Of a stretch of DNA of 64,000 nucleotides, positions 12,760-50,729 are shown piece after piece. The stretch comes from a virus. Numbering within the stretch: position 1 is the first letter of the stretch; each line of letters begins with the position of its first letter. The position numbers and the translations under genes are program-made. Location of the stretch: IMG/VR virus record IMGVR_UViG_3300032050_000037, positions 49,073 to 113,072 of that record; one strand, 5' to 3'. A model generated the notes under the pieces. That model made no database searches, was not told the origin of the DNA, and saw only the letters and a list, made by a program, of their open reading frames with translations.

Positions 12760-13067
12760 TGTCTGAAAGATCAGAAGCAAAACGAGATGGTGCTAAACAA
12801 CAAAAAAATAGTGGACGTGGAAACTATCAAAAAGGAGATGCCCAATGGCGTAATTTTGTGGTAGACTATAAAGAATATGAAAAAAGCATTTCAATATCTC
12901 AAAGCATTTGGTCCAAGATATGCACAGACACATTCAAAGTAAGTAGAGATAAGCACCCAGTACTAAAAATAATATTGGGTAAGGATAATTCAAAAACTAG
13001 GCTTGCTGTGATAGAATGGTCTTTATTAGAACAAATTTTAGATTGTTGGGAGAAAAATAATGAATAA
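12759..13067 (+). CDS. Putative nuclease/Holliday-junction-resolvase-like protein
   Basis: 102 residues. The N-terminal 'SGRGNYQKGDAQWRNFVVDYKEYEKS' followed by a helical/beta core matches the general pattern of small actinophage proteins annotated as resolvase-like nucleases, with D-x-K ('DYK') as a possible catalytic pair. Position after recA fits. The fold is not certain; an unrelated DNA-binding protein is possible. Confidence 0.5.
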   Translation: MSERSEAKRDGAKQQKNSGRGNYQKGDAQWRNFVVDYKEYEKSISISQSIWSKICTDTFKVSRDKHPVLKIILGKDNSKTRLAVIEWSLLEQILDCWEKNNE

Positions 13068-14016
13068 AATAAATATAATGCCTCAAGTGACTGTTTATAG
13101 AGATATATTATCTGAGAATGATATTAATCTATTATTAAATCAAATATATGAATCTCAAAAAGATATTGTGGATCTTGAAAAAACAAAACCAGAAGAGTCT
13201 GTATATAGAGACTATCACGGCCCACAGCCAGAATTAAGAAACGATAATAGTTTAATTTATACATGGACTCCTTGGTATACATTCGGATTAAGAAGTATAT
13301 GGTCAGACCCATATGATATGAAAAAAAATAAAAAAGAGCACATTAAGGGTTTTAGTTTAATAAGAAATGCTATAAAAACTGTTCATTTTGATTATTTAAA
13401 TGATTGGAAAGATAATGGAAAATGGACTTATGAAATAACTGATTGGGACATCATGGCCCCAGATAGAGAAGATGCTAGTAATATGAGCTTATCTACATTT
13501 GAAATATTACAACATAAATTAAATTTAGAAGAAGATTATACAATTGCAGTACATACAGATTGGCATAATCATAGAGAAGAAGAGCCTGGACCAAAGCAAA
13601 TAATTACATATACAATTTATTTAAATGACGATTATGAAGGCGGAGAAATTGATTTTGTTGATGAAGAAAATAAAAAAGTTTTTGTATATAAACCTAAAAA
13701 GGGAGACATTACTGTATTCCCATCAGGAAGACCATTTTGGCATGGAGCAAGGTCTGTAAAATCTCAACCTAATAAAATATTTATTAGGTCATTTTCTATA
13801 TTTAGAAGCCCAGGAAGTAAAGATTGGATTTATGGAGTTAGAACAAATGGTCTTGCTAAATGGATAGAAATGCAAAATGAAAAAATTAAAAATGTTGTTG
13901 AAGATGGAGAAGTAGGAAGACAATTAGTTTATAAAGGACAAGAACCAAATAAATTAAAAAGAGTTATTCCGATCTTCGTGGAATCAGAAGAATATATTGA
14001 TGGAAGGAAAATATAA
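13060..14016 (+). CDS. 2-oxoglutarate/Fe(II)-dependent dioxygenase (prolyl-hydroxylase type)
   Basis: 318 residues. Iron facial triad H165-x-D167 ('HTDWH') and H228 ('FWHGARSV'), with R243 as the likely 2OG anchor. Between them lies 'YLNDDYEGGEIDFVD', the signature of the prolyl-4-hydroxylase superfamily (P4Hc). A ~150-residue N-terminal extension has no recognised domain. It probably hydroxylates a protein side chain, with DNA base oxidation as the alternative. One of six such oxygenases in this window, embedded in the recombination operon with 8-nt and 1-nt junctions. Confidence 0.88.
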   Translation: MNKINIMPQVTVYRDILSENDINLLLNQIYESQKDIVDLEKTKPEESVYRDYHGPQPELRNDNSLIYTWTPWYTFGLRSIWSDPYDMKKNKKEHIKGFSLIRNAIKTVHFDYLNDWKDNGKWTYEITDWDIMAPDREDASNMSLSTFEILQHKLNLEEDYTIAVHTDWHNHREEEPGPKQIITYTIYLNDDYEGGEIDFVDEENKKVFVYKPKKGDITVFPSGRPFWHGARSVKSQPNKIFIRSFSIFRSPGSKDWIYGVRTNGLAKWIEMQNEKIKNVVEDGEVGRQLVYKGQEPNKLKRVIPIFVESEEYIDGRKI

Positions 14017-18835: not shown

Positions 18836-19369
18836 ATGGAAATTGAATTATCTGATCATTTTGATCGTATGAATAAAGTTGTTGCCGAACTTTTAAAGGG
18901 CAATAATCCGACCCAGATTGCCTCTCTGACGGGCTTTAAACGTTCTGATGTAGTAGAACTTATAGATGAGTGGAAAACCGTCGTATACAACGATACAAGC
19001 TCTAAGGAACGGGCTAAAGAGGCTATTTCAGGAGCAGACCAACATTACTCAATGTTAATTAAAGAAGCCTGGAAAACTGTAGAGGACGCAGATCAGGCAG
19101 GTCAATTAAATGTAAAAGCAAACGCTCTTAAATTAATTTCAGATATTGAAACAAAAAGAATTACTATGCTTAAAGAAGTAGGTCTTTTAGATAATGCTGA
19201 ATTAGCATCACAAATTGCTGAAACAGAACATAAGCAAGAAATATTAGTTAAAATATTAAAAGAAGTTACATCTTCTTGTCCTAAATGTAAAATGGATGTT
19301 GCAAAAAGATTATCACAAATAACTGGAATAGTAGAGCCAGTAATAATAGATTCAGGAGAAGCATTATAA
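18836..19369 (+). CDS. terS: Terminase small subunit
   Basis: 177 residues. An N-terminal helix-turn-helix ('NPTQIASLTGFKRSDVVELI'), a long helical oligomerisation region and a C-terminal C-x2-C segment ('SSCPKCKMDVA') match actinophage small terminase subunits that recognise packaging DNA. Located just upstream of the large subunit, separated only by an oxygenase gene. The call rests on architecture and context, since small terminases diverge strongly. Confidence 0.72.
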   Translation: MEIELSDHFDRMNKVVAELLKGNNPTQIASLTGFKRSDVVELIDEWKTVVYNDTSSKERAKEAISGADQHYSMLIKEAWKTVEDADQAGQLNVKANALKLISDIETKRITMLKEVGLLDNAELASQIAETEHKQEILVKILKEVTSSCPKCKMDVAKRLSQITGIVEPVIIDSGEAL

Positions 19370-19926
19370 TGTTTGAAAATTTTAAAAGAATTGGTGAAGA
19401 AATATATGTTTATGAAAATTTTTTATCCAAAGAAGAGTCAAACAATATAGTTGATATATTAGAAAAAATTAATGAAGAAGAATGGATTAAAGAAAATAAT
19501 TTTTCTAGAACAGAACCATTGTCTGAAATTATTAAATTAAGAAATAGAATTAATACCATGATACCAGAAGGCTTATATCTTGGAAAAGCAAGCACTGCAA
19601 CTAGGTTGGTCAAAGGAAATTTTTGGGGAGAACATTCTGATATACATGATTTTACTGAAGCAGAAAATCTATCTAAGCTATACGTTGAAGGAACTCCATA
19701 TAAAGAGTTAGAATTATCAATTTATGGTTTAGTAGTATATTTAAATAAATTTGAAGGCGGAGAAATATATTATCCGACACAAAATATAATTTATGCTCCA
19801 AATCAAGGAGACATGGTAATACATAGTGCATTACCAATTGCTTTGCATGGTGTAAAGCCAGTAATATCTGAAAAAAGATACTCATATAGTAATCACATAT
19901 ATAAGAAAGTAAAAGTCCCAGCATAA
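19369..19926 (+). CDS. 2OG-Fe(II) dioxygenase between the terminase genes
   Basis: 185 residues. Iron ligands H89-x-D91 ('EHSDIHDF') and H160 ('ALHGVKPV'), with 'YLNKFEGGEIYYP' between them and an Arg-containing 'KRYSYSNH' strand for 2OG. Minimal P4Hc-type domain without extensions. It is inserted between small and large terminase with one-base overlaps on both sides, an unusual place for a metabolic enzyme. Paralogous to 43721 and 44448. Confidence 0.88.
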   Translation: MFENFKRIGEEIYVYENFLSKEESNNIVDILEKINEEEWIKENNFSRTEPLSEIIKLRNRINTMIPEGLYLGKASTATRLVKGNFWGEHSDIHDFTEAENLSKLYVEGTPYKELELSIYGLVVYLNKFEGGEIYYPTQNIIYAPNQGDMVIHSALPIALHGVKPVISEKRYSYSNHIYKKVKVPA

Positions 19927-26231: not shown

Positions 26232-26298
26232 ATATTATTTACATAGATTTAAATTAAAATTTAAAAAAAATAAAAAAAGAGACAGGTATATATATTGA
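26215..26298 (+). CDS. 27-residue lysine/aromatic-rich peptide
   Basis: Overlaps the 3' end of the previous gene by 17 nt and its stop overlaps the TTG start of the carbamoyltransferase (TTGA). Composition (Lys, Arg, Tyr, Phe, Leu) and size match the peptide at 24351. Both may be membrane- or nucleic-acid-interacting peptides, or spacer peptides for translational coupling. Confidence 0.5.
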   Translation: MILKFKYYLHRFKLKFKKNKKRDRYIY

Positions 26299-27776
26299 TA
26301 ATACTTGGAATTAATGAAACTTCGCATGATGCATCTTTATCATTAATTGAAGATGGGAATATCTTATTTGCTGGTCATGCTGAAAGATATAGCAAGAAAA
26401 AAAATGATTGGTATATCAATAATGATTTAATTAGTGATGCCCTGCAATACGGTTTTCCAGATCAGATAGCATATTATGAAAATCCATTATTAAAAGCTTC
26501 TAGATTATTATTAAAGGGTGGAAATGGTAATTGGGTTCCAAAATATCAAATTAAAAATATATTTAATAAAACCGTACCAGTTAAATATTTCAAACATCAT
26601 TATTCGCATGCATGTGCTGGATATTATACAAGTAAATTCGATGATGCAGTTATAGTTGTTTTGGATTCTATAGGAGAATGGAATACTTCTACAATATGGA
26701 CGGGAGAAGGAGACAAAGTTAAATTAAAACATAAACAAAATTATCCATTTAGCTTTGGATTATTCTATTCTGCTTTTACACAACTAGTAGGATTAAAACC
26801 AAATGAAGAGGAATATATTTTTATGGGTATGGCTGGCTATGGAAACCCAGATAGATATTTTGATCAAGTAAATTCTTATTTTCCATCAATTACAAAACAA
26901 AAATATAATTTTCATAAAGGAATATATGATTTTAATTGGGGAAGTATTCCATGTATGGCTGGATGGGAGAATAACTCTAAGTCTTGGTTTGATCAAAGAA
27001 ATTTTGATTTAGCAGCAGCAGTCCAAAAGGTTTATACATTAAGACTTTTAGAATTTATGAAGTATGCAAAAGGTATAACTGGTAAAAATAAACTAGTTTT
27101 TATGGGCGGATGTGCTTTAAACTGTTCTGCTAATACTTTTTTATGGGATATATTTAAAGATATTTGGATAATGCCTAACCCAGGAGATGCTGGATCATCT
27201 TTAGGCGCAGCTGCTGCATTATATGGAAAACATTTAAATTGGAACAATCCTTATCTTGGATATAATATTAAAGGAGAATATCCAGTAGATAAAATAATTT
27301 CTGAGTTAAAAGAAAATAAAATTGTTGCAGTTGCAAACGGACGTGCAGAGTATGGACCTAGAGCATTAGGAAACAGAAGTATATTAGCCGATCCAAGAGA
27401 CCCAGATATAAAAAATAAAGTTAATTTAATTAAACAAAGAGAAATGTTTAGACCATTTGCGCCAGTTATAATGGAAGAATGTGCATCAGAATGGTTTGAA
27501 ATGGAATTTACATCACCTTACATGCAATATGCAGTAAAATGTAAAAAACCAGAGATAGTTCCGTCTGTGGTTCATGTAGATGGAACTTCTAGAGTACAAA
27601 CAGTAAATAGAAATCAGCATAGAGGTCTTTGGAGAGTATTAAATAAATTTTATCAAGAAACAGGAGTGCCATTATTATTAAATACTAGTTTAAATATTAA
27701 AGGGCAGCCTTTATTAAATGATATTGCTGATATTAATTTATGGAAATCTATTTATAAAAGTGATATACTAACTTAA
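26295..27776 (+). CDS. NodU/CmcH/TobZ-family carbamoyltransferase
   Basis: 493 residues from a TTG. Kae1-like N-terminal domain: 'GINETSHDASLSLIEDG', 'HHYSHA' (metal His), 'DSIGEWNTSTIW' and 'FMGGCALNCSAN'. C-terminal YrdC-like domain: 'GRAEYGPRALGNRS' from 349, 'FRPFAPVI' and 'LLLNTSLN'. Full length, catalytic elements intact. It transfers a carbamoyl group from carbamoyl phosphate via an adenylate to a hydroxyl. Substrate candidates are a sugar of the cassette's glycan or, as described for some virus-encoded relatives, hydroxymethylcytosine in DNA. Confidence 0.92.
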   Translation: MIILGINETSHDASLSLIEDGNILFAGHAERYSKKKNDWYINNDLISDALQYGFPDQIAYYENPLLKASRLLLKGGNGNWVPKYQIKNIFNKTVPVKYFKHHYSHACAGYYTSKFDDAVIVVLDSIGEWNTSTIWTGEGDKVKLKHKQNYPFSFGLFYSAFTQLVGLKPNEEEYIFMGMAGYGNPDRYFDQVNSYFPSITKQKYNFHKGIYDFNWGSIPCMAGWENNSKSWFDQRNFDLAAAVQKVYTLRLLEFMKYAKGITGKNKLVFMGGCALNCSANTFLWDIFKDIWIMPNPGDAGSSLGAAAALYGKHLNWNNPYLGYNIKGEYPVDKIISELKENKIVAVANGRAEYGPRALGNRSILADPRDPDIKNKVNLIKQREMFRPFAPVIMEECASEWFEMEFTSPYMQYAVKCKKPEIVPSVVHVDGTSRVQTVNRNQHRGLWRVLNKFYQETGVPLLLNTSLNIKGQPLLNDIADINLWKSIYKSDILT

Positions 27777-43720: not shown

Positions 43721-44446
43721 ATGTTTTATAATCGACCAGACTGCATCCAAATTGCTGAAGGAATATATGTCTTTAAAAACTATATTCCAGAAGAAATGTG
43801 CAATAGATTTTCTACAATATTAGATAAATTCGAAGAAAATAGATTTAAAGAAGATAAAAACTATATTCCTTGGTATGACGATAAAATGAGTCCATCGGTA
43901 CCAGAAGCCTTAGATTTGTGGGAACATGTGTCTGATCTTATTTATCCAGAGTATGTTATAAATCCACAATCACAATTCATATGTTCAAGACCAGGACAAG
44001 AAGGAATGTTTGTTCACTGTGATAGCCCTGGTAAAGAAAATGCTCATGAATTAACTCAAGAAGATAGTTATTCAACCTGTAGCATAATTGATTTTGGAGT
44101 TGTTGCATATATATCAAATTTTGAAGGTGGAGAAATATTTTATCCTGCTTTTTCAAAAGATGGAATTTTAAAATCAGAAAATAATTTTGATGAATCAGAT
44201 GAATTAATATACAAGCCTGGACTTGGAGACGTAGTTATACACAAATCAGAAGCTCCATATTTTCATGGAACAAAACCAGTATTGTCTGGTGTTAGATATG
44301 CCTTTTCTTGTTTTGCTACAAACATAGCACAAGTACCAGGAACTTTTTATTCATATAAAAGCCCAGAGTATTTAGAAAAAATTAAAGACAGGTCACAAGA
44401 GTCTTTTGATAATTGGTTGAATCCTATACAAAATAGCAAGGTTTAA
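43721..44446 (+). CDS. 2OG-Fe(II) dioxygenase
   Basis: 241 residues. H99-x-D101 ('FVHCDSPG') and H182 ('YFHGTKPV') with an Arg-containing 'GVRYAFSCF' strand; 'YISNFEGGEIFYP' between. Clear paralogue of 44448 (shared 'PGKENAHELTQEDSYSTC' region) and more distant from 19369. TGATAGAAT (43703-43711) is 10 nt before the ATG, an almost leaderless start. Probable protein or sugar hydroxylase. Confidence 0.88.
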   Translation: MFYNRPDCIQIAEGIYVFKNYIPEEMCNRFSTILDKFEENRFKEDKNYIPWYDDKMSPSVPEALDLWEHVSDLIYPEYVINPQSQFICSRPGQEGMFVHCDSPGKENAHELTQEDSYSTCSIIDFGVVAYISNFEGGEIFYPAFSKDGILKSENNFDESDELIYKPGLGDVVIHKSEAPYFHGTKPVLSGVRYAFSCFATNIAQVPGTFYSYKSPEYLEKIKDRSQESFDNWLNPIQNSKV

Positions 44447-44447
44447 T

Positions 44448-45269
44448 ATGTTTACAAAAAACAATAATATAAAACAAATTGCAGAAGAAATATGGATATA
44501 TAAAAATTTTATTTCAGAAGAAGAAAATAATAAAATAACTTCTTTAATGAAAGAATATGAAAATACATTTAAAGATAAAAAAGAAGCTTTTGTTTACAAA
44601 AATCAACATATTGATTGGTATAAAGATAAAACTGGCCCACTGCTAATTGATTTAAAGCCAATATGGGACAAAATATCCTATCTTCTATACCCAGAACACT
44701 ATATTCATCCACAACTTTTTGTTAACGTAATGAGACCTGGAGATGAAGGCATGTTCATACATGCAGATAGTCCAGGAATGAATATGGAGCATAAATTAAC
44801 ACAATTAGATAGATGGAGTACATGCTGTAGATTAAGTCATGGAATAGTAACATATTTTGGAGATTACGAGGGTGGAAACATTTATTATCCTAATATTGAA
44901 AAAGATGGATCTATTAAACAACGACCTCAAGATGATCAAGATTGTTTAGAAGTTGAAGTAAACCCAAGAGATTTAGTAATTCATGGAGCATGTCATCCAT
45001 GGGAACATGGGGTAAGAAAAATAACTGGCGGTACTAGATATGCTTATTCTAATTTTGCAATGGAAAAAGAACATGCGCCTGGAACTTTTGAGCTGTTTGA
45101 CCCAGAAAAACATCCTTTTATGAAAGAAGAAGAGGAAATAATTAGTTGGGTAAATACTGTACATCCAGAAACAACTTTTTGTAAAAAGAAATGCATTTGT
45201 GGACAATCTAAAGATTTTCCATATTGCGATAATACCCATAAAATAATTAATAAAAAATTAATTGACTAA
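44448..45269 (+). CDS. 2OG-Fe(II) dioxygenase fused to a CDGSH-type iron-sulfur motif
   Basis: 273 residues. Oxygenase domain (~1-225): H105-x-D107 ('IHADSPG') and H187 ('WEHGVRKI'). At the C-terminus C249-x-C251 ... C260-D-x2-H264 ('CICGQSKDFPYCDNTH') reproduces the exact ligand spacing of CDGSH (mitoNEET-type) 2Fe-2S proteins, with Asn for the central Gly. The fused cluster could supply electrons or sense redox state. Starts 1 nt after its paralogue's stop; the paralogue lacks the Fe-S tail. Confidence 0.85.
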   Translation: MFTKNNNIKQIAEEIWIYKNFISEEENNKITSLMKEYENTFKDKKEAFVYKNQHIDWYKDKTGPLLIDLKPIWDKISYLLYPEHYIHPQLFVNVMRPGDEGMFIHADSPGMNMEHKLTQLDRWSTCCRLSHGIVTYFGDYEGGNIYYPNIEKDGSIKQRPQDDQDCLEVEVNPRDLVIHGACHPWEHGVRKITGGTRYAYSNFAMEKEHAPGTFELFDPEKHPFMKEEEEIISWVNTVHPETTFCKKKCICGQSKDFPYCDNTHKIINKKLID

Positions 45270-45296: not shown

Positions 45297-45431
45297 ATGT
45301 TAAATAAAATAAAATGCAAGTTGTTTGGACATCCTTTGTTTAGATATACGTCCTGTCCATTTACTATGAAAAAATATTTTATTTGTGATTCTTGTGGATA
45401 TATAAAAGACGCCAATGGAGAAAATATATGA
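45297..45431 (+). CDS. Small zinc-binding protein; leaderless
   Basis: 44 residues. C..H ('CKLFGH'), a Cys in 'YTSCPF' and C-x2-C ('CDSCGY') suggest a zinc ribbon. Leaderless (-10 7 nt upstream). ATGA overlap downstream. Confidence 0.6.
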   Translation: MLNKIKCKLFGHPLFRYTSCPFTMKKYFICDSCGYIKDANGENI

Positions 45432-45694
45432 GAAAGCTTTTAAATGGAGAAACAGTAGAATCATATGAAAATGCTATAGATTTAACTATTCATACAAAAG
45501 CACCAGCTAAATGGAAATTAATTGATATGGAAACTGGTCAGGAGTATGTGGGCTCTGCAGAACCAAATGAGTATGGTAAATGGATCAGGATTAAAGATAA
45601 AGAAATATCTGAAGCTGGGTACTCAACAGGTAAATGGTCCGATGACGGTGACTGGAATATTCCAATAACTCCATTTAGAGATAAATTAAGATGA
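45428..45694 (+). CDS. Small protein, unknown
   Basis: 88 residues from the ATG at 45428, preceded by GGAG. Beta-rich: 'WKLIDMETGQEYVGSAEPNEYGKWIRIKDKE', resembling a small beta-barrel found in aquatic phages. Function unknown. Confidence 0.68.
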   Translation: MRKLLNGETVESYENAIDLTIHTKAPAKWKLIDMETGQEYVGSAEPNEYGKWIRIKDKEISEAGYSTGKWSDDGDWNIPITPFRDKLR

Positions 45695-46176: not shown

Positions 46177-48219
46177 ATGAGCGAAGCAAAATGCCCATTT
46201 ACGGGTAATGCATTAAACAATCAAAAAACATCAAATGCAGATTGGTGGCCTAATCAATTAGATTTGTCAGGATTAAGAAAGCATTCAGAAAAATCTGACC
46301 CAATGTCAGATGATTTTAATTATGCGAAAGAGTTTGAAAGTTTAGATCTTGATGCTATTAAAAAAGATATTGATTATCTTTTAACTACTTCGCAAGAATG
46401 GTGGCCTGCAGACTATGGTAACTATGGCCCATTCTTTATTCGTATGGCATGGCATTCAGCAGGTACATATAGAATTTCAGATGGTCGTGGTGGTGCTGGA
46501 GAAGGTCTACATAGATTTGCTCCACAAAACTCTTGGCCAGATAATGGTAATTTAGATAAGGCCCGTCGTTTGCTATGGCCTATTAAACAAAAATATGGAA
46601 AGAAAATTTCGTGGGCAGACCTTATGATTCTTGCAGGAAATGTTGCTCTTGAAAATATGGGATTTAAAACATTTGGTTTTGCTGGTGGCCGTGAAGATGT
46701 CTGGGAATCAGACGATACATATTGGGGATCAGAAAAAGAGTGGCTTGCAGACAATCGTTATAGCGGAGATCGTGAATTAGAAAATCCATTAGCTGCAGTT
46801 CAAATGGGATTAATTTATGTTAACCCAGAAGGCCCTAATGGAAATCCAGATCCAGTTCTTTCTGCAAAAGATATTCGTGAAACCTTTGCTCGTATGGCAA
46901 TGAATGATGAGGAAACAGTTGCACTTATTGCAGGTGGACATGCATTTGGTAAAGCACATGGTGCTGGCGATCCTTCACATGTTGGTCCAAATCCAGAAGC
47001 TGCCCCAATTGAAGATATGGGTCTTGGATGGAAAAACTCATTTGGAAAAGGTAATGCAGAAGACACAATTACAAGTGGTATTGAAGGTGCATGGACTGCA
47101 ACTCCTACTAAATGGGATAACTCATATCTTAAATTACTATTTAAATATGAATGGAAACAAACAAAGAGTCCTGCAGGAGCTACACAATGGATACCTACAG
47201 ATGAATCTGCTGCTAATTTAGTTCCAGATGCTCATATTGAAGGTAAATTCCATGCCCCAGTAATGACAACAGCAGACCTTGCTTTGCGATTCGATCCAGA
47301 ATATGAAAAAATTTCAAAGAAATTCCTTGAAGATTTTGATTATTTCTCAAATGTTTTTGCTCGTGCTTGGTTTAAGTTAACTCATAGAGACATGGGCCCA
47401 ATTGCAAGATATCTTGGTAAAGATGTACCATCAGAAGAATTAATTTGGCAGGATCCAGTTCAATCATCTAATATTAATATTGAAATAGATGCTATTAAGA
47501 ATAAGATTAAATCATCTGATATACCTATGTCACACTTTGTAGAGACCGCTTGGGCTTCTGCATCTACTTTCCGTAAAACAGATAAGCGTGGTGGCGCAAA
47601 TGGTGCCCGTATTAGATTACAGCCTCAAAATACATGGGAAATTAATAATAAGCCATCAATATTAAATGTTATTAGCTTCTTAGAATCTATTAAGGATAGT
47701 TTTAATGCATCACTTGCAGATTTAATTGTTTTAGCAGGATGTGCAGCAATTGAAAAAATTACTGGAGATCAAGTAGAGGTTCCATTTATTGCTGGTCGTG
47801 GAGATGCTACACAAGAGCAAACAGATATTGAATCATTTGCTGTTCTTGAGCCAAAGTTTGATGGTTTCCGTAACTATGTTCAGGAAGGTATACCAACCCC
47901 AGAAGAGGTTTTGTTAGTAGAAAAAGCTAACCTATTAGGTCTAACACCAGTAGAAATGGTTCTATTGTTATCTGGAATGCGAATGCTAAGTAATGAAAAA
48001 CTAGACAATAGTTATTTAGTTGATCTACTTTCCTATATTAATGCTGATCAGGCAAACGGGGTTCCTAGAGTGGATCTAATTATTGCATCTAATTCAGAAC
48101 TTCGTGCAATTGCTGAAGTATATGCCTCAGATGATGCAAAAGATAAATATATTAAAGACTTTATTTCAGCGTGGGATAAGGTTATGATGCTAGACCGATT
48201 TGATGTAAAGAAGGGCTAA
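46177..48219 (+). CDS. katG: Catalase-peroxidase KatG
   Basis: 680 residues (cellular KatG ~730-740), both domains present. Distal heme residues R89, W92, H93 ('[11 protein letters not shown]'); adduct partners Y214 ('YVNPEGP') and M240 ('RMAM') complete the W-Y-M triad; proximal H255 ('[12 protein letters not shown]'). The C-terminal domain retains '[16 protein letters not shown]' and '[11 protein letters not shown]' but lacks an insert before 'RVDLI', explaining the length. It destroys H2O2. An intact katG in a phage is exceptional; it may protect the infected, catalase-poor aquatic host. Confidence 0.95.
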
Positions 48220-50411: not shown

Positions 50412-50548
50412 AGAAGGTTATATTGTTACTCATGGCTATTATTGGGGTGACTGCAGGAGTTTTAGGAGTATTATTTACTCGTTTTTCAAAGAATATGGAA
50501 AGCTGGGAAATGGCTTGGGATGATGAGAAAGAGGACAATGCTCTGTAA
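50408..50548 (+). CDS. Small single-TM protein
   Basis: 46 residues: N-terminal TM helix ('VILLLMAIIGVTAGVLGVLF') and an acidic C-terminal tail. ATGA overlap upstream. Function unknown. Confidence 0.62.
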   Translation: MKKVILLLMAIIGVTAGVLGVLFTRFSKNMESWEMAWDDEKEDNAL

Positions 50549-50729
50549 ATGCGATCAATCCAGCATGTTCCCTAGATGCAATAAAAATCCAGATTATTGC
50601 ATAAAACTGGAGAAAATCGTAGATACATCAAATCCTAATGTAGTCCATATAATATATCCAAATGGGCGGGACGTACCAGAAGAGATGCTAGATCCTAATA
50701 TAGGAGGATTTCTCGGTAGAAAGAAATGA
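50538..50729 (+). CDS. Small Cys-rich protein
   Basis: 63 residues from the ATG at 50538 (GAGG upstream). Cysteines 'CKC', 'RCNK' and 'YCIK' may bind zinc; C-terminus 'DPNIGGFLGRKK'. Overlaps the preceding gene by 11 nt. Confidence 0.58.
   Translation: MLCKCDQSSMFPRCNKNPDYCIKLEKIVDTSNPNVVHIIYPNGRDVPEEMLDPNIGGFLGRKK

Follow-up and report, generated by a model that had tools for sequence, protein, structure and literature searches.

A phage gene was found to encode a 2OG-Fe(II) oxygenase that carries a CDGSH module at its C-terminus, and modules of the same kind, about 20 residues long, were found fused to three other families of phage oxygenases and as free miniproteins encoded beside such enzymes. 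The repeated fusion to several enzymes of one class, together with the free form beside them, is good evidence that both act together, and a partnership of the CDGSH module with phage oxygenases is therefore well supported by the sequences. For the nature of this partnership we propose, with about even chances, that the module is a [2Fe-2S] redox partner whose electron would return the active-site iron to Fe(II).

Genomic context of the P0001 gene

The window (the whole stretch of DNA that was analyzed, 64,000 nucleotides) is the final 64 kb of a 113,072-base IMG/VR virus record. Judged by the genes of the window, among them those for a large terminase subunit, a DnaB-like helicase and a DNA polymerase, the source is a tailed phage. 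The following features of the window were considered:

43721..44446, + strand: adjacent oxygenase homologue without tail; its stop codon ends one base ahead of the P0001 start codon
44448..45269, + strand: P0001, prolyl-hydroxylase-like 2OG-Fe(II) oxygenase with C-terminal CDGSH module (273 aa, ORF translation)
44760..44768, + strand: HxD iron-ligand motif, H105-A106-D107 (H105 and D107 invariant in the homologue alignment)
45006..45038, + strand: distal iron ligand H187 to 2OG-binding R197, H+10 spacing (both invariant; P4H/PHD2 fold match)
45162..45242, + strand: conserved tail block, residues 239-265, HPETTFCKKKCICGQSKDFPYCDNTHK (codon variation, dN)
45192..45239, + strand: CDGSH signature, residues 249-264, ligands C249, C251, C260 and H264 (Pfam PF09360, position table)
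45392..45694, + strand: small conserved phage protein, phrog_4098 (profile match)

A protein similar to phrog_4098 was read directly upstream of the free mini-CDGSH genes in the loci L099 and L189. Further downstream of P0001, positions 46177-48219 encode a catalase-peroxidase KatG (NCBIfam PRK15061, 1080 bits); a 687-aa protein reading as KatG is also encoded in L190, a locus from a related phage in which a free mini-CDGSH gene is present. The 113 kb record contains at least 11 matches to the 2OG oxygenase family PF13640, with examples at 13060-14016 and 19369-19926 of the window, and several of them form a tandem array that lies outside the window (record positions 16-21 kb). A Nol-like carbamoyltransferase gene (phrog_1601, 1.6e-104) is located at 26295-27776.

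The oxygenase core of P0001

In the alignment of 35 homologues, the facial triad H105, D107 and H187 (HxD...H) was invariant, and so was R197, the basic residue for the 2OG carboxylate, which lies ten residues past the distal His H187. The AlphaFold model of P0001 had a mean pLDDT of 84.4 and a pTM of 0.83, with the core mostly above 90. The best solved match of the predicted core was the algal prolyl 4-hydroxylase 2jig (Z 14.9; 179 residues with an rmsd of 3.1 angstrom), and human PHD2 matched with Z 14.7; by these matches the predicted core has the double-stranded beta-helix fold. The oxygenase part of P0001 gave no 2OG match in Pfam or NCBIfam, where passing the cut-off is not part of the family definition, and the label "oxygenase" therefore rests on motif and fold. 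The adjacent paralogue showed a weak Pfam 2OG match (E 0.02, below cut-off) and matched phrog_61, 2OG-Fe(II) oxygenase (1.4e-7). The invariant H105, D107, H187 and R197 combined with the fold match to 2jig and PHD2 therefore place the predicted fold and iron site in the prolyl-hydroxylase group, with 2OG-dependent hydroxylation as the putative activity.

The CDGSH signature in the tail

The C-terminus of P0001 reads PETTFCKKKCICGQSKDFPYCDNTHKIINKKLID and contains the signature CxCxxSxxxPxCDNTH, formed by C249, C251, S254, P258, C260, D261, N262, T263 and H264. Compared with C-x-C-x2-(S/T)-x3-P-x-C-D-G-(S/A/T)-H, every position is matched except G. The position table and the PF09360 match thus bear out exactly what the preliminary description had read from this tail, namely the ligand spacing including the S and P positions, with N for G; its observation that the adjacent paralogue has no such tail was confirmed by translation and Pfam. 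The N was present in all nine distinct modules of the window family, and among 13 canonical viral CDGSH modules one had it as well. The zf-CDGSH profile PF09360 scored 27.8 bits against the whole protein (E 3.1e-6, cut-off 29.5) and 30.6 bits at P0001 in a six-frame search of the record, which is over the cut-off. When P0001 was shuffled 200,000 times, the four ligands came up 48 times, whereas the full signature did not appear at all; its chance expectation is about 1e-8 per protein.

A second CDGSH-like match of the record (window 50529-50582, 15.5 bits) was dismissed because the His is absent. It belongs to a small ORF at 50520-50729 with the CDGSH-like sequence CKCDQSSMFPRCNKNPDYC, located near a gene resembling the neighbor of the mini-CDGSH ORF of L232 and L233 (MALCKCGLSDAYPECNGTH). 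Because of this neighbor, the small ORF is perhaps a decayed or altered mini-CDGSH copy.

The tail of P0001 holds a single CDGSH motif in which no beta-sandwich was recognized. AlphaFold left the module unplaced in the models of both the C- and the N-terminal fusion types (pLDDT about 44), and therefore no module-to-iron distance is given. A module of only about 20 residues lacking the beta-sandwich of solved CDGSH proteins could also be a structural zinc or substrate-docking knuckle, in which three Cys and one His, likewise a set of zinc ligands, hold Zn while the tail binds a substrate protein or another oxygenase; C245, another Cys that is conserved in the window family, would fit such a site. 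We consider this quite unlikely, since the non-ligand residues S, P and D, mostly G or N, and T/S were kept in all tabulated modules, standalone and fused, and the constancy of S, P and D is expected for a cluster site, not for a bare zinc site. In addition, the best solved match of the free miniprotein was the first motif of the two-motif CDGSH protein 3tbn (E 1.3e-7), and such proteins bind 2Fe-2S (PMC3174974).

Conservation of the tail and homologues without it

The P0001 protein search yielded 35 viral loci, and a core-only alignment, blind to the tail, yielded 39 IMG/VR loci at 67% identity or more. Lack of conservation in close relatives, which the preliminary description had named as the outcome that would count against the motif, was not what these loci showed: the tail was kept in every copy with an intact end among the 39. 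The block PETTFCKKKC(I/V)CGxSxDxPYCDNTHK was nearly constant across the P0001 family, including the additional conserved C245. Among 20 sequences, five of the 27 codons for residues 239-265 varied in amino acid and 21 only silently. The mean dN of these sequences was 0.045 for the tail block, compared with 0.148 in the core and 0.217 in the linker that immediately precedes the tail; silent sites were saturated, so dN alone was compared. No other part of P0001 is as constrained as the tail, on which purifying selection acts most strongly. This codon pattern, with 21 silent-only variable codons in a 27-codon block and a dN a third of that of the core, refutes a neutral or accidental tail without function. 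Homologues that are 48-50% identical presumably work without the tail, but a similar module is fused to four oxygenase families, and we leave a functionless tail practically no probability.

A total of 41 loci showed 38-50% identity to P0001. The tail was absent in all 40 that were intact, and the remaining one was cut by the contig end. The tail-less homologue of L060 apparently occupies the same locus as in L029, where the oxygenase gene is preceded by the same small ORFs and the same secreted lysozyme-like gene. The 110 kb contig of L060 and the 113 kb contig of L066 gave no CDGSH match at any position. Since these tail-less homologues occur in records with no CDGSH match at all, the oxygenase chemistry, as far as such genomes indicate, does not require the module and the module is not indispensable; the idea that every member needs the tail was rejected on the same grounds. 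In the tree of 36 homologues, the tail-bearing proteins formed one clade (100/100). Window-family phages other than the source encoded one or two additional mini-CDGSH ORFs, which might pair with the P0001-type tail.

CDGSH modules fused to other oxygenase families

The signature was searched with a degenerate DNA scan and with a stricter scan for the phage form CxCGRSxxYP(Y/F)CD (85 stretches, viral_contigs). C-terminal fusions of the P0001 type were found in at least 26 loci. Four further settings of the phage module were detected: three fusions, and free miniproteins. In fam1 (at least 23 loci) the module is N-terminal on a P4H-like oxygenase (PF13640 1.2e-9, CDGSH 1.2e-6), in fam2 (at least 15 loci) it is N-terminal on another oxygenase family (PF13640 3.4e-9, CDGSH 4.4e-6), and in fam3 (at least 8 loci) it is N-terminal on a JmjC-type oxygenase (PF08007, JmjC_2, 4.8e-7; CDGSH 1.8e-6). 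Among the matches listed, all fused mini-modules sat on oxygenases and none elsewhere. The fused fam1 proteins retain a Met at the start position of the unfused protein. Because near-identical contigs account for many of the loci, the locus counts overstate the number of independent events; safer counts are the four partner families and the three joins seen at a single position of the array. The fusion noted in the preliminary description is thus real and conserved, and it is not unique to P0001, as the module occurs on at least four oxygenase families and in free miniproteins.

An uncharacterised protein family of 247-291 aa is encoded directly after the CDGSH-JmjC fusion in L136 (6280-7068) and L103 (12618-13436), and close to a free mini-CDGSH gene in L107 (1545-2420) and L124 (7810-8553). 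The L136 copy had no Pfam match.

Free mini-CDGSH proteins and their gene neighborhoods

Free CDGSH miniproteins were detected in at least 39 loci, many of them 34-49 aa long by the called start. Their genes are located between oxygenase genes, often with 4-base overlaps. Neighbors were analyzed in 27 non-duplicate free-module loci, using adjacent genes of at least 100 aa and an oxygenase cluster defined by single-linkage. Genes of this cluster made up 35 of the 40 genes adjacent to free modules, compared with 84 of the 237 other genes of the same loci, and none of 20,000 within-locus permutations reached 35. Because the cluster was built by single-linkage, Pfam was run on the 40 neighbors, and PF13640 was found at E 0.01 or better in 32. 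The exceptions were the free modules of L120 and L194, which adjoin thyX instead of an oxygenase gene, and that of L189, which is also not next to an oxygenase gene. At the level of whole records, PF13640 was present in all 18 sampled mini-module records but missing from each of the 13 viral records that had a canonical CDGSH protein, a contrast that is supportive only, since several of the canonical-CDGSH records are short and may be of other origin.

One conserved array of oxygenases has as its neighbors a portal gene, a DUF6065 protein and tail-fibre proteins that carry S74 chaperone and collagen-like stretches. In L098, L108 and L184, a free 39-residue module ORF separates fam2 from fam1 and overlaps each of them by 4 bases. 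The same array has the module as the N-terminus of fam1 in L127 and L128, and as the N-terminus of fam2, with a plain fam1, in L105 and L133. Free mini-CDGSH genes were also found upstream of tail-less P0001 homologues in L107, L109, L115 and L118 (the L109 homologue being 40% identical), and in L141 such a gene, for a 37-residue miniprotein, lies 26 bases downstream of a tail-less homologue, in the same order as in the fusion. No electron-donor gene fixed beside the CDGSH module was found.

Two contigs of 3 kb each (L228 and L229) contain a 34-residue ORF, MCQCGRSLSYPVCDGSHGRPPVEPPPWDKEKQDD, near genes named from their sequences as AhpC-like and AhpD-like and an oxygenase-like ORF. The PVCD spelling of MCQCGRSLSYPVCDGSHGRPPVEPPPWDKEKQDD was missed by the DNA scans, and mini-CDGSH genes are therefore undercounted.

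The varied settings bear on the possibility that the module is a redox, pH or iron sensor, with the state of the cluster switching the oxygenase on or off and thereby coupling the enzyme to oxidative conditions in the infected cell. NEET clusters do switch with redox state and pH (PMC9737848), a KatG gene lies downstream in the window, and the AhpC-like and AhpD-like genes adjoin another mini-CDGSH in related phages. The module, however, is N-terminal in three families and C-terminal in another, or free, and such varied attachment makes a common allosteric contact less likely than a flexible or diffusing partner. A sensor is in our judgment decidedly improbable.

Free miniproteins within arrays would also suit a shared iron or cluster chaperone, the labile cluster of which loads or repairs the oxygenase center with no passing of electrons. 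NEET proteins hand [2Fe-2S] clusters to apo-proteins, the His ligand making the cluster labile (PMC9737848), and many iron enzymes are made at once, with 11 PF13640 matches in the window's own record. Against a chaperone, the iron that 2OG oxygenases take up is mononuclear Fe(II) and not a cluster, a module fused to one oxygenase would have difficulty serving the others, and an A-type Fe-S carrier gene was present in only one of 20 records. We regard this explanation as unlikely. The one carrier (PF01521, 4.4e-13) is encoded at L190:538-867, in a contig that also has a free mini-CDGSH and the KatG-like gene; PF01521 was absent from the 19 other records, and the idea that the phages bring their own Fe-S carrier was rejected for this reason.

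Comparison with known CDGSH proteins and oxygenases

In the CDGSH structures known so far, a beta-sandwich carries two modules (PMC3174974). Lin et al. (2011) distinguished seven CDGSH types and named fusions with a glutamate synthase domain and DUF1271; neither a dioxygenase nor a virus is mentioned in that text (PMC3174974). The phage module shares with types 1-7 (CISD/NEET) the full signature CxCxxSxxxPxCD(G/N)(T/S)H and PF09360, but it differs in its length of about 20 residues, its one motif, the lack of a recognisable beta-sandwich, the frequent N for G and the 2OG oxygenase as partner. Cellular CDGSH fusions with Fer4_19, glutamate synthase, ferritin-like and Rieske_2 domains were described by Sengupta et al. 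(2018), whose text has no mention of oxygenase, virus or phage (PMC5859297). Those fusions are alike in joining CDGSH to a redox or iron protein, Rieske_2 included, whereas they are cellular and the listed partners are not 2OG oxygenases.

With P4H/PHD2-type oxygenases (2jig, 3gze and PHD2), P0001 shares the double-stranded beta-helix core, HxD...H and the Arg at H+10, but it is only about 14% identical and has the CDGSH tail in addition. Cyanophages resemble the source phage in carrying several 2OG-Fe(II) oxygenase genes per genome (phrog_61; Sullivan et al., 2010, PMC3037559), and the paralogue at 43721 and fam1 both match phrog_61. The text of Sullivan et al. (2010) on cyanophages contains no iron-sulfur term (PMC3037559).

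A tblastn search of P0001 against 50,697 phage records returned nothing, and the fam1 and fam2 matches in these records did not cover the CDGSH module. Nothing was obtained with fam1 by tblastn against plasmids, and two short peptide patterns found no relative in cellular genome contigs; as the scans of cellular contigs were weak, a cellular 2OG-CDGSH counterpart may exist. In the literature on CDGSH and phage, titles and abstracts revealed none about such a protein. As far as the searches reached, no oxygenase-CDGSH fusion had been described in phages, in agreement with the preliminary description. Both domains belong to known families, and it is their combination and the free mini-module that appear to be new.

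Proposed role of the module

2OG oxygenases require Fe(II) and stall once the iron is oxidised. In collagen prolyl hydroxylase the iron is returned to Fe(II) by ascorbate, and bacteria are generally without ascorbate. We know of no good understanding of how bacterial and phage 2OG oxygenases with oxidised iron recover in an ascorbate-free setting. Both roles put forward in the preliminary description, reduction of the active-site iron by the cluster and redox sensing, are consistent with the data. In the redox-partner model, the simplest one, to which we give an even chance, the module would bind one [2Fe-2S] cluster via C249, C251, C260 and H264, and its electron would restore the active-site Fe(II) after uncoupled turnover or oxidation. 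Cellular thiols or flavins would recharge the cluster, a reaction reported for that of mitoNEET, and the free miniprotein would do the same electron job in trans. The mitoNEET cluster has a potential near 0 mV, is reducible by thiols, flavins and glutathione reductase, and is transferable to other proteins (PMC9737848). The arrays with N-terminal fusions adjoin tail-fibre genes, and virion proteins are for this reason a candidate substrate of these oxygenases. More broadly, we tentatively suggest, with less confidence than for the redox role itself, that phages may possess a general accessory system. Its dedicated reductant for a whole set of 2OG and JmjC oxygenases would be a self-contained CDGSH [2Fe-2S] module that measures about 20 residues and is either free or fused to one end of the enzyme.

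Significance

A module present on at least four oxygenase families would lend itself naturally to testing built-in iron rescue. It would give CDGSH proteins a role in phages and would show how little fold holds a cluster, should the module bind one as proposed. It also provides a way into the study of the many 2OG oxygenases encoded by aquatic phages, few of which have a known substrate. If the general accessory system, which we hold to be possible but on balance doubtful, is true, these enzymes would represent an iron-sulfur-assisted class of 2OG oxygenases, and the module would be a CDGSH protein far smaller than those described.
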